Part shown: positions 23,754-35,207 of the stretch, piece after piece
Layout of the letters: every line of letters begins with the position of its first letter
Position numbering within the stretch: position 1 is the first letter of the stretch
Assembly: GCF_014189535.1 (NCBI RefSeq)
Contig: NZ_CP050307.1
Span: 2,170,001 to 2,234,000 of the forward strand
Length of the DNA: 64,000 nt
Reading direction: 5' to 3'
Source of the DNA: Rhizobium lusitanum
GTDB lineage: Bacteria; Pseudomonadota; Alphaproteobacteria; Rhizobiales; Rhizobiaceae
Program-made: the position numbers and the translations under genes
Notes under the pieces: model-generated
Seen by the model: only the letters and a program-made list of their open reading frames with translations
Database searches by the model: none
Told to the model about the DNA's origin: nothing

Positions 23754-26700
23754 ATGACTTCGATCGTTTCCTCCCTGAGCACCAATCAGATCAGGTCGCT
23801 TTCCACAGCAGCGGTTGCGGCTTGGACGACGGAAGACGTGGCGTCGCTTTCCACAAAACAGATCAATGTGCTTTCGTCAGCTCAGATCGCAGCGTTGGAC
23901 ACGGAAGATGTCGAGGTCCTCAGCTCCCAGCAGCTAAGCGCTATTTCACAAACTGCCATCGTTGGTTTGACGATGGATCAATTGGCAGTTCTGACGGCGT
24001 CTGACATCGAAAGCCTGAGCTCGCTGCAGATCGCGGCGATCACCACCACGCAGATCGGTGCCTTGACGACGGATCAGGCGGAAGCCTTGAGCTCGTCGCA
24101 AGTCGGTGCCCTTAGCTCATCGCAACTCGCAGCTTTAAGCGCGGATGATATCGCCACCTTCTCGACCGACGATGTGGCGGCAATCACCAACAAGGCGGTA
24201 TCAGGCCTATCCACGGCCTCTATCGCAACCCTCTCGACGGCGCAGATCGCTGCGTTGGGCACGTCCAGCATTGCGAGCCTGACCACCACCCAGGTCGCCG
24301 CCCTGAGTACGGCGCAGATTGCCGCCTTGACGACGACCCAGGCCGCCGCTCTCAAAGCAGTGCAAATTGCGGTCATGGACACGAAGGGTATCGCAGCGCT
24401 TTCCACCGCGCAGATTGCCGCTCTCAGCACGAGTGCGGTCGCGAGCTTGACGACTAGCCAGATCAATACCCTGAGCACAACGCAGGCAGAGGCGCTGTCC
24501 TCCTCGCAGGTGAAGGTGTTGAACTCGACCCAGATTGCGGCTCTGGGAACGGATGATATTGCCACCTTCTCGACCGACGAGATCGCGGCGATCACCAGCA
24601 AAGCCATACCAGGCTTGGGCACGAGCCTTCTTGCGGCTCTCTCGACGGAGCAGATTGCGGCCCTGAGCACGAGTGCGGTCACTGGTCTGACGACGACCCA
24701 GATCGAAGCCCTGAGTACAGAGCAGGTTGCCGCCTTGACGGTGACCCAGCTCGGTGCCCTCAAGGCATCGCAGGTTACCGTCATGGGCACCAACGATATC
24801 GCCGCGCTTTCCGCCGCGCAGGTTGCGGCCCTCAGCAAGGCCGCGATCGCTGGTCTGACGACCAGCCAGATCGTCGCTCTGAGCACAGAGCAGGTCGCCG
24901 CCTTGACGTCGACCCAGCTCGGCGCCCTCAAGGCATCGCAAGTCGCGGTGATGGGCACCAGCGATATCGCCGCGCTTTCCACAGTGCAGGTTGCAGCCTT
25001 GGGTACGAGCGCCATTACCGGCCTGACGACCAGTCAGATCGATGCCCTGAGCACGGCGCAGGCGGAGGCTTTGACGACGATCCAGGTCGCGGTGCTGACT
25101 TCGACCCAGATCGCCGCGCTGGGGACGGATGACATCGCCACCTTCTCGACCGCCGATATCGCGGCGATCACGAGCAGGGCCGTAGCGGGCTTGGGCACAG
25201 TCGCCATCGCAGCCCTCTCGACGGATCAGATTGCCGCGCTGAGCAAGGCCGGTCTTGCGGGCCTGACGACGGATCAGATTGCCTCCTTGAGCACGGCGCA
25301 GGCCGAAGCGTTGAAGACGACGCAGATCATTGTGCTGAGTTCCAAGCAGATTGCAGTTCTGGGAACGGACATTGTTTCATCCCTTTCCACAGCGCAGGTT
25401 GCCGCTCTAAGCACCTCCGCCATTACCGGCCTGACCACCGACCAGATCGCTGCCCTGACCACGGCGCAGGCGGAAGCCTTGTCCGCCTCGCAGGTAAAAG
25501 CGCTGACTTCGACCCAGATTGCCGTTCTGGGAGCCGATGATATCGCCACCTTCTCGACCGCCGACATGGCGGCGATCACCAGCAAAGCCATTTCGGGCTT
25601 GAGCACGGCCGCTATCGCAGCCCTCTCGACGGATCAGATTGCGGCCCTGAACACCAGCGCGGTTGCAGGCCTGACGACGACCCAGATCGCCGCCCTCTCG
25701 ACGGATCAGACGAGCGCCCTGAACACGCGTATCGTCGCGGGCCTGACGACCGGGCAGATCGTGGCTCTGAGTACGACGCAGATTGCGGCCTTGACGACGA
25801 CCCAGCTTGCCGCCCTCAAGGCATCGCAGGTCGCGGTGATGGGCACCAACGATATCGCGGTGCTTTCCACTGTACAGGTTGCAGCTCTGGGCACGAGTGC
25901 GATCGCAGGCCTGACGACCAGCCAGATCGATGCCCTGACCACGGCGCAGGCAGAGGCCTTGACGACGGCTCAGGTGAAAGTGCTGAGCTCGACCCAGATT
26001 GCCGCGCTGGGGACGGATGATATCGCCACCTTCTCGACCGATGATATCGCGGCGATCACCAGCAAAGCCATGTCTGGCTTGAGCGCTAGCCAGATCGCGG
26101 CCCTGTCGACGGGCCAGATTGCGGTCCTAAGCACGAGTGCGATCGCTGGTCTGACGACCAGCCAGATGGCAGCCCTCACTACCCTCCAAGCGGCGGCCTT
26201 GACGACGACCCAGGTGGCGGTGCTGAGCTCGACGCAGCTTTCCGCGCTGGGAACGGATGACATCGCCACCTTCTCGACCGCCGATATCGCGGCGATCACC
26301 AGCAAAGCCATATCGGGCTTGAGCACGAGCCTTGTCGCAGAACTTTCCACCGCACAGATCGCGGCCTTGGGCACGAGCGCCATCACCGGCCTGACGACCA
26401 GCCAGATCGCAAGCCTGAGTAGCGGCCAGCTTGCTGCTTTAAACACCGCAAAAGTCGCTATGCTGAGTTCGACGCAGGTCGCTGCCCTCGGCACGGATGT
26501 TGTCGCATCCCTGTCCACGACACAGGTCGCCGCCCTGAGTGTCGCCGGCATCGCGGGTCTGACCACCGACCAGATCGCCGCCCTGAGAACAACGCAGCTT
26601 GAGGCCTTGACGACGACCCAGGCGGCAGCGCTGAGCTCAACGCAGCTTTCCGCGCTCGGGACGGATGACATCGCCACGTTCTCGAGCGCCGATATAGCGG

Positions 26701-34040: not shown

Positions 34041-35207
34041 ATGCCGCGTATCAAGAAAATTGCCGTGGTCGGTGCCGGGCTTTCCGGTGCGGTCATCGGT
34101 CGTGAACTCGCGCACGCGGGTCACGAGATCGACGTCTTTGACACGCGCAACCATATCGCCGGCAATTGCCACACGGAGCGCGACCCGGCAACGGGCGTCA
34201 TGGTTCATGTCTACGGCCCGCATATTTTCCACACGGACGACAGGGAAGTCTGGGATTATGTGAACCTCTTTCAGACGTTCATGCCCTACAAGAACCGCGT
34301 CAAGACGACGAGTTCGGGCCAAGTCTATTCCCTGCCCATCAATCTCCACACGATCAATCAGTTTTTCGGCAAGATGTTCCGGCCCGACGAGGCGCGTGCC
34401 TTCATCGAGGAACGGGCAGATAAAAGCATCACAGATCCGAAGACCTTCGAGGAGCAGGCACTGCGCTTCGTCGGCAAGGACCTCTATGAAGCATTCCTCA
34501 AGGGATATACCCAGAAGCAATGGGGTTGCGCGCCAACCGAGCTTCCAGCCTCCATCCTGAAACGGCTTCCAGTCCGCTTCAACTACGACGACAACTATTT
34601 CTTCCATCAATACCAGGGCATGCCGGAAAACGGCTATACCGACATGGTCGGACGAATTCTCGATCACACGAATATAGATGTTCATCTGGAAACGAGGTTT
34701 CACAGCGGTCTCAACAAGGACTTCGACCACATTTTCTATTCCGGCCCGCTCGACGGCTATTTCGACTATGAATATGGCCGTTTGGGATACCGGACGCTGG
34801 ATTTCGAGCGCTTCACCTATGACGGTGACTATCAGGGGTGCGCGGTCATGAACTACGGAGATGTTTCCGTGCCCTATACGCGCGTGACGGAGCACAAGCA
34901 TTTCTCCCCGTGGGAGGATCATGCCGGCTCGGTCTGCTATCGCGAGTTTTCCAGGGCCAGCGAACCCGGCGATGTCCCCTATTATCCGATCCGCCTGATG
35001 GAGGAAAAGGAACAGCTCGCCCACTATGTCGCGCGAGCCCTCCAGGAGACTTCCGTCACCTTCGTCGGCCGGCTCGGGACATACCGTTATCTCGACATGG
35101 ATGTGACGATCCGTGAGGCGCTGGACACCGCCCGGCTTTATTTAACCGCTAATGCCGACCATGCGTCTATGCCTGCATTCCTGCATCCGCCGCTCCAGAC
35201 GCCTTAA
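34041..35207 (+). CDS. glf: UDP-galactopyranose mutase
   Basis: 388 residues of the Glf family. The FAD motif is [15 protein letters not shown] (residues 9-23), with [13 protein letters not shown] and VYGPHIFHT after it. The substrate region is [31 protein letters not shown], and the C-terminal FAD contact is [12 protein letters not shown]. The enzyme interconverts UDP-galactopyranose and UDP-galactofuranose in the cytoplasm, using reduced FAD. It is co-oriented with the GT41 gene at 6 bases distance. Galactofuranose is usually for surface polysaccharide, but no other polysaccharide gene is nearby, so its pairing with GT41 suggests that the protein glycan contains or requires galactofuranose (inference). 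Confidence 0.93.

Follow-up and report, generated by a model that had tools for sequence, protein, structure and literature searches.

Does a giant repeat protein encoded beside a glycosyltransferase in Rhizobium lusitanum serve as that enzyme's dedicated substrate? The question arises from a 64,000-nucleotide stretch of contig NZ_CP050307.1 (positions 2,170,001 to 2,234,000), here called the window, in which a preliminary description had pointed out an octad-repeat frame, a family GT41 glycosyltransferase with tetratricopeptide repeats (TPRs), and a gene for the UDP-galactopyranose mutase Glf. All three genes were confirmed on the plus strand, with 303 bases between the repeat gene and the GT41 gene and 6 bases between the GT41 stop and the Glf start (Table 1). 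On balance, we lean toward a dedicated cytoplasmic protein O-glycosylation cassette in which the repeat protein is the target, galactofuranose (Galf) is the probable sugar, and export follows. Within this proposal, the acceptor status of the repeat protein is held most firmly and is very likely.

The arrangement recurs in other genomes. Genome contigs were scanned with an alignment of 16 GT41 sequences, which gave 217 coding relatives; the best 80 (68 to 92% identical) were analyzed, each with up to 10 kb on either side of the GT41 gene. A profile derived from the octads of the window protein, applied at a threshold of >100 bits, found a frame with the same repeat (ALTTAQ; Pfam family PF20080, ALTTAQ_rpt) in 73/80 loci. 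The nearest such frame lay upstream on the same strand in 32 loci, upstream on the opposite strand in 20, downstream on the opposite strand in 11, and downstream on the same strand in 10, at a median distance of 267 bases from the GT41 gene (maximum, 1559). Adjacency that survives re-arrangement into four configurations argues for function. The seven loci without a local ALTTAQ frame (L084, L085, L087, L100, L106, L115, and L121) all come from genomes that carry PF20080 elsewhere (7/7). A Glf of more than 60% identity was present in 57/80 loci, with a downstream, same-strand position in 53. For 22 of the 23 loci lacking a local Glf of this cassette type (L091 was left out), all of the corresponding genomes (21/21) hold some Glf, which is of the cassette type (64 to 80%) in 8 and of other types (39 to 48%) in 13. 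In two cases seen (L163 and L167), this cassette-type Glf lies just past the repeat gene; in L122/L180, a 38% identical Glf that is not of the cassette type also adjoins it. One cluster of neighboring frames (c2; 24 loci) was dropped, as its coordinates look like those of antisense frames of GT41 and Glf. Nine distant GT41 loci (32 to 42% identity), each from a different one of the 19 genomes that have distant GT41s alone, showed neither an ALTTAQ nor a Glf partner. A search for the trio elsewhere had been suggested in the preliminary description, and it identifies the GT41, Glf, and repeat-protein genes as a conserved unit that recurs in dozens of genomes. No description of such a cassette was found in the literature searched, whose coverage took in few subscription journals and preprints.

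Co-occurrence was also scored in an even draw of 121 genomes of the family. A window-type GT41 (at least 64% identical, near full length) was present in 12 and any GT41 (E 1e-20) in 31. Window-type Glf (at least 67%) occurred in exactly those 12 genomes, any Glf (E 1e-40) in 28, and some Glf in 16 of the 109 genomes without a window-type GT41. PF20080 (E 1e-8) was detected in 17 genomes, including all 12 with the GT41. With kinship ignored, Fisher P values were 1.6e-13 for GT41 and ALTTAQ, setting G035 aside, and 8.5e-17 for GT41 and Glf type; the PF20080 carrier in G035 is a multidomain protein with just 4 ALTTAQ stretches. The dependence is one-way: GT41 goes with the repeat gene, and the reverse does not always hold.

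Outside the Rhizobiaceae, the pair persists, at some loci with different companions. Among 385 genomes of the class, PF20080 matched in 5 further genomes (E 1e-7), three of which (G316, G344, and G412) have a 44 to 46% identical GT41 in the cassette and two of which (G181 and G282) do not. The Niveispirillum cassette (G316) comprises the UDP-xylose synthase UXS, a GT41, a second GT41, HlyD, an HlyB-type ATP-binding cassette (ABC) protein, and an ALTTAQ protein. Its UXS matches 4gll, UDP-glucuronic acid decarboxylase 1 (E 2e-128), and is identified by this match and by the name in the Pseudoroseomonas record itself, NCBIfam scores all being below their cutoffs. HlyD passes TIGR01843 (292 versus 209 bits), and the ABC protein reaches 606 bits for TIGR01846, below the cutoff of 726. 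The same gene set occurs on Pseudoroseomonas cervicalis plasmid pL11-A, where ALTTAQ pieces lie in five frames and the annotations include UDP-glucuronic acid decarboxylase and a type I secretion adaptor. Within the Azospirillaceae, near-full-length GT41s of at least 49% identity were found in 18/79 genomes, with ALTTAQ in the same stretch in 14/18; three of the four misses end at contig edges, which leaves L209 as the single true miss. A GT41 at 69 to 100% occurs in 4/18 genomes of the order of G344 and is beside ALTTAQ in all four. At the phylum level (398 genomes), PF20080 matched in 15 further genomes (E 1e-8). In the stretches extracted for 10 of them, the repeat gene adjoins a GT41 in G924, G942, and G700, ABC and HlyD proteins in G676, and HlyD in G648. 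Across 24 outside loci (the 18 from Azospirillaceae, Pseudoroseomonas, the 4 from the order of G344, and G924), UXS was present in 9 and a type I secretion system (T1SS) ABC protein together with HlyD in 8.

Phylogeny is consistent with this linkage. In a tree of 59 GT41 rows, 38 form one clade with support of 100/100, and 35 of these are ALTTAQ linked. The remainder consists of L205, which lies at a contig end, L121, whose genome has its ALTTAQ gene at another place, and L209 (the miss). The 44 linked rows comprise these 35, 6 in a second clade (98/89) made up of the second GT41s of UXS loci and the GT41 of G942, 2 among the unlinked GT41s (L222 and the second GT41 of L210), and 1 on a long branch (L207). 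The linkage label changes 6 times on the tree versus 13.5 times when shuffled.

Several outlying loci have architectures of their own. G942 (L215 to L217) encodes a 5446-aa ALTTAQ frame with a GT41 frame 78 bases downstream. The genomes of family f197 (G700, G666, G711, G682, G685, and G721) contain frames of ∼2400 to 3800 aa with several GT41 matches each; in G700, this multi-GT41 frame (L222:2-2596) lies ∼1.2 kb from a 3382-aa ALTTAQ frame. A Rhizobium rhizoryzae plasmid (L194) carries a 58% identical GT41, three ALTTAQ frames, a GT2 glycosyltransferase, and a haloacid dehalogenase phosphatase, and no Glf was seen in 26 kb around it. G781 gave a single PF20080 match.

The repeat protein of the window has the octad consensus L-S/T-T/S-x-Q-I/V-A-A, and one register modulo 8 holds 275 of the 286 '[LF][STGN][TSAK]' motifs in the whole protein. 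PF20080 matches 116 stretches, for a total of 1611.9 bits against a curated cutoff of 26.4. A GTG 105 bases 5' of the ATG would lengthen the product to 2666 aa. Ser and Thr make up 733 of its 2631 residues and Asp/Glu 155, with 9 Arg and no Cys. Over the 323 octads scored, the Ser/Thr fraction is 0.79 at position 2, 0.87 at position 3, and 0.30 at position 4. Matches to an NCBIfam 'lanthipeptide' model and to Pfam Sigma70_r4_2, LRR_EndoS, and Inos-1-P were taken as repeat artifacts. No function for PF20080 was found in the literature and database sources searched. The same genome (6.94 Mb, 5 contigs) encodes a second ALTTAQ protein of 735 aa (L015:7557-9761, G000:C4), which has no GT41 beside it; its neighbors are an ABC frame and a nonribosomal peptide synthetase frame with a terminal glycosyltransferase domain.

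Structure prediction separates two kinds of Ser/Thr. An AlphaFold2 model of the first 400 residues, computed with 30 relatives, has a mean local confidence (pLDDT) of 96 and a predicted template modeling (TM) score of 0.84. In this model, nearly every octad forms one helix of 5 to 6 residues that starts at octad position 3. Position 2, just ahead of the helix, is Ser, Thr, Gly, Asn, or Asp in the window, which are the usual helix N-cap residues; the Ser/Thr at position 2 is thus explained without a glycan. Its frequency is 0.67 to 0.91 across 42 proteins, with or without GT41. Positions 3 and 4 are predicted to start the helix and to be exposed. The solved chain HeliScrew4 (9zem) has the same octad (E 1.5e-16), with Thr/Ser-Pro-Glu-Gln, while a Foldseek search with the rod gave weak matches, the best being mesothelin (TM score, 0.27). 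Neither 'ALTTAQ' nor 'HeliScrew' was mentioned in the literature searched.

By their distribution, only the Ser/Thr at positions 3 and 4 appear to behave like acceptors. Between 110 GT41-linked frames and 5 frames from genomes without a clade GT41, median Ser/Thr fractions were 0.79 versus 0.31 at position 3 (P = 7e-4), 0.77 versus 0.78 at position 2 (P = 0.74), 0.23 versus 0.21 at position 4, and 1.09 versus 0.62 for positions 3 and 4 together (P = 3e-4). Removal of near-duplicates left 107 linked frames and unchanged medians (P = 7e-4 for position 3 and 0.78 for position 2). Linked Rhizobiaceae-type frames have 0.81 at position 3 and 0.21 at position 4, and the other linked frames have 0.67 and 0.76. 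The preliminary description had counted several hundred possible acceptor sites; its observation of Ser/Thr in nearly every octad stands, but the view that every Ser/Thr is an acceptor was rejected, since the model makes position 2 a helix N-cap and the Ser/Thr there show no covariation with GT41.

The window GT41 matches XcOGT (E 1.5e-74) and a chain of O-linked N-acetylglucosamine (O-GlcNAc) transferase (OGT; 7yeh, E 3.4e-74), and its nearest named relatives in the genome contigs scanned, at 92%, are GT41 genes from Rhizobium rhizogenes NBRC 13257 and Rhizobium sp. ICMP 5592. The catalytic-type residues H274, K443, H521, S522, T523, and D526 are invariant in the 16-sequence alignment; among them, H274, K443, and H521-S522-T523 are the counterparts of the OGT HPTSH His, Lys842, and His920-Thr-Thr. 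The NCBIfam model NGTferase (HMW1C N-glycosyltransferase) scores 28.1 bits, far from its cutoff of 1000. Glf shows full-length homology to the solved Klebsiella UDP-galactopyranose mutase 3gf4, of which residues 3 to 379 are aligned (E 3.8e-176); TIGR00031 gives 300.6 bits, slightly below its cutoff of 303.75. The window genome holds this one Glf only (search at E 1e-40).

What sugar the GT41 would transfer was approached through its donor pocket. According to excerpts of PMC3660302, OGT contacts GlcNAc via Thr560 and Leu653, and Met501, Leu502, and Tyr841 surround the N-acetyl group. The residue at OGT Cys917, equivalent to Tyr744 of SPINDLY (SPY), is argued to set the pocket size of GT41 enzymes, with Tyr or Phe accompanying sugars smaller than GlcNAc (excerpts of PMC9715652). 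By alignment and group consensus, the window GT41 has Val276, Cys369, Gln442, and Tyr518 at OGT Thr560, Leu653, Tyr841, and Cys917. Judged from sequence, the GlcNAc contacts of OGT are therefore replaced, so UDP-GlcNAc is an unlikely donor, and the earlier hint of an unusual donor is borne out to this extent. The gate Tyr is common to the ALTTAQ-linked GT41 groups. In addition, 23 positions, including Cys369, Ser522, and Thr529, are fixed (at least 85%) in the 18 Rhizobiaceae-type rows and different in the 9 rows from UXS loci and near kin. The co-encoded enzyme suggests the candidate donor, namely, Galf in Rhizobiaceae and xylose at UXS loci, and it is reasonably probable that the sugar so supplied is the one transferred by the GT41 itself. 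We know of no GT41 with a furanosyl donor, and no GT41 with Galf activity was found in the literature searched.

For export, a type I route is suggested by the exporters beside relatives, the absence of Cys, and a C-terminal motif found behind nonrepeat linkers. A T1SS ABC protein and HlyD are both present in cassettes L183, L189, L193, and L196 to L200 and beside the L229 repeat gene; L230 has HlyD alone. Repeats begin right at the N terminus of the window protein, leaving no signal peptide visible on inspection. The C-terminal end is a possible export signal. Repeat proteins of L110, L113, L122, L123, and L158 have nonrepeat Ser-rich tails, yet their end motif resembles that of the others. 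Overall, secretion of the repeat protein is likely.

The proposed sequence of events is as follows. Glf would convert UDP-galactopyranose to UDP-galactofuranose, the TPR domain of the GT41 would hold the rod, and the enzyme would place galactofuranose on exposed position-3 Ser/Thr in the first turns of the helices, with hundreds of possible sites. The sugar-coated rod would then leave the cell after glycosylation, probably via a type I system. Sister GT41s of some Azospirillaceae and Acetobacteraceae would act alike with UDP-xylose from the neighboring UXS. A surface role, such as adhesion, hydration, or shielding of a surface fiber, is a guess.

TABLE 1 Window positions of the cassette genes and of features within their products
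Feature	Positions	Strand	Remarks
Giant ALTTAQ-repeat protein, predicted glycan acceptor	23754..31649	+	2631 aa from ATG, ∼323 octads
C-terminal end of repeat protein, last 15 residues	31602..31646	+	Resembles the ends of relatives, even behind nonrepeat Ser-rich linkers
TPR-GT41 glycosyltransferase, 693 aa	31953..34034	+	PF13844, 237.7 bits (cutoff, 25)
TPR-like region of GT41 protein, residues ∼57-178	32121..32486	+	TPR-like matches, N-terminal part
Tyr518 of GT41	33504..33506	+	Aligns to OGT Cys917/SPY Tyr744 (proposed donor-size residue)
Glf, UDP-galactopyranose mutase, 388 aa	34041..35207	+	PF03275, 262 bits

Several results weigh against this proposal. PF20080 occurs without a window-type GT41 or Glf type in G031, G062, G103, G105, and G035; no GT41 was detected at E 1e-40 in G031, G062, and G105, and G103 has one of 36% identity. 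Frequent occurrence of the repeat gene without GT41 and glf had been named in the preliminary description as telling against the cassette, and this was found in part, with 5 of the 17 PF20080 genomes lacking the partners and 12 having them. Glf of 45 to 48% identity lies away from the cassette in 12/21 genomes, and some of these genes neighbor other glycan-type genes; a dedicated role for Glf is thus not a given. In 15 of the 24 outside loci, neither UXS nor Glf was seen in the stretch; thus, the GT41-ALTTAQ pair is constant, while a linked sugar gene is not general. As for export, one query with the Niveispirillum exporter retrieved no frame more than 35% identical in any of the 80 loci. The covariation test has five negatives, ignores kinship, and is post hoc, because its grouping, based on linkage and on whether the genome holds the GT41, was made after a first split. 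That split, by adjacency within 3 kb (92 adjacent and 44 not), gave a much weaker result: P values were 9e-5 for position 3, 7e-4 for position 2, 0.017 for position 4 in the opposite direction, and 0.053 for positions 3 and 4 together. Its 'not adjacent' set held farther cassette members and the f197 family, which has another repeat grammar. The final test left out 10 frames that are not linked to a GT41 but come from genomes that hold one (position 3 median, 0.71) and 11 f197 frames that are off pattern (0.56, 0.62, and 0.57 at positions 2 to 4), and one negative frame (L147; 0.66 at position 3) overlaps the linked range.

At loci L169, L170, L174, L176, L177, and L179, the distant Glf (45 to 47%) lies beside a recurring ∼380-aa frame, which contained DUF707 in the member tested; Galf may therefore serve another use in those genomes.

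The specific reading that a single GT41 clade has swapped donors, with Galf placed directly on Ser/Thr of a secreted rod in Rhizobiaceae and xylose in Niveispirillum, Pseudoroseomonas, and their kin, is tentative. A competing reading, which we regard as unlikely, is that the GT41 adds an ordinary pyranose (Glc, Gal, or other) that a second transferase, local or elsewhere, caps with galactofuranose. It draws on the next commonest neighbor families apart from antisense frames and a broad ABC group (c4): a candidate second transferase of 417 aa with an invariant DDD and a PF12248 insert, which follows the GT41 in 18/80 loci (e.g., L117:12092-13342) and lies between GT41 and Glf in 11 of these 18, and GalE, present in 9/80 loci. 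Within the same GT41 family, HMW1C forms both hexose-Asn and hexose-hexose links (excerpts of PMC9715652). However, the 417-aa gene is absent from 62/80 loci and from the window, and its product is recognized as a candidate transferase by motif alone, with a model pLDDT of 51 and no PDB match at E 1.

That the cassette merely shares a surface or flagellar regulon, with the GT41 acting on another protein such as flagellin instead of the repeat protein, is improbable, although the flagellar neighbors count against our proposal. Flagellar or chemotaxis-like frames occur in 14/80 loci and in 3/9 of the distant unlinked GT41 loci. The former comprise a Che/FliF cluster in L108, L111, L112, L118, and L120; flagellin/FlaF in L086, L088, L089, L091, L092, and L109; and an FlhB-like frame in L102, L133, and L140. 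One G344 repeat gene (L186) is near FlhB and a rod protein, the far Glf of L162 to L167 lies among flagellar or chemotaxis genes, and flagellins are the targets of a TPR transferase, FlmG, in Caulobacter (excerpts of PMC7591256). Yet 12 flagellar queries gave no match in the remaining 66/80 loci, ALTTAQ adjoins GT41 in 73/80, and exposed Ser/Thr covary with GT41. Moreover, the 11 flagellin and Che loci form two sets with one gene order each, which points to few independent linkage events. Finally, the Ser/Thr could be purely structural helix caps, with the GT41 accompanying the rod as an inactive or chaperone-like TPR protein. The modeled N-caps at position 2 and the octad shared with HeliScrew4 fit this reading, but the invariant catalytic-type residues and the co-encoding of a nucleoside diphosphate-sugar enzyme in Rhizobiaceae and, separately, in Niveispirillum, Pseudoroseomonas, and G344 make it highly improbable.

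Other window neighbors are a sulfonate-type ABC system, a major facilitator superfamily protein, TctA, and a sensor kinase; the TctA cluster family (c53) was found again solely in the two closest relatives. A 774-aa frame with hexapeptide acyltransferase repeats was also noted (window:60456-62777).

The glycosylation cassette that we favor would give PF20080 a testable role and make what bacterial GT41 enzymes transfer directly testable. Donor choice between Galf and xylose inside one GT41 clade makes a natural experiment, for which candidate residues are named. If correct, the proposal would add galactofuranose to the protein modifications of plant-associated bacteria, and a single dedicated enzyme would build a rod-shaped coat of glycoprotein. 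A compact enzyme with a regular eight-residue acceptor would also suit glycoengineering.

Among known systems, HMW1C and ApNGT are cytoplasmic GT41 enzymes acting on a large surface protein, the HMW1 adhesin, which is exported by two-partner secretion. The present GT41 is likewise paired with a large protein, here a predicted acceptor. HMW1C makes N-links with Glc/Gal (excerpts of PMC9715652); in contrast to that system, the candidate acceptor here is modeled as a rod of alpha-helical octads, the accompanying sugar gene encodes Glf or UXS, and the exporter, where seen, is type I. Like OGT and SPY, the window enzyme combines TPRs with a GT41 domain and aligned catalytic-type residues. Unlike OGT, it has replaced GlcNAc contacts, a gate Tyr as in SPY, and a gene order tied to one protein family. 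FlmG has flagellin as its acceptor and pseudaminic acid as its donor, whereas the candidate acceptor here is the ALTTAQ rod. Bacterial UDP-galactopyranose mutases such as 3gf4 serve polysaccharides; the Glf of this cassette is instead linked to a protein-type glycosyltransferase. FlmG also provides a precedent for a TPR and GT-B transferase that acts in the cytoplasm on secreted proteins (excerpts of PMC7591256). As proposed, the cassette would be a variant of GT41-type cytoplasmic protein glycosylation whose acceptor family is new and whose donors, if their assignment holds, are new as well.

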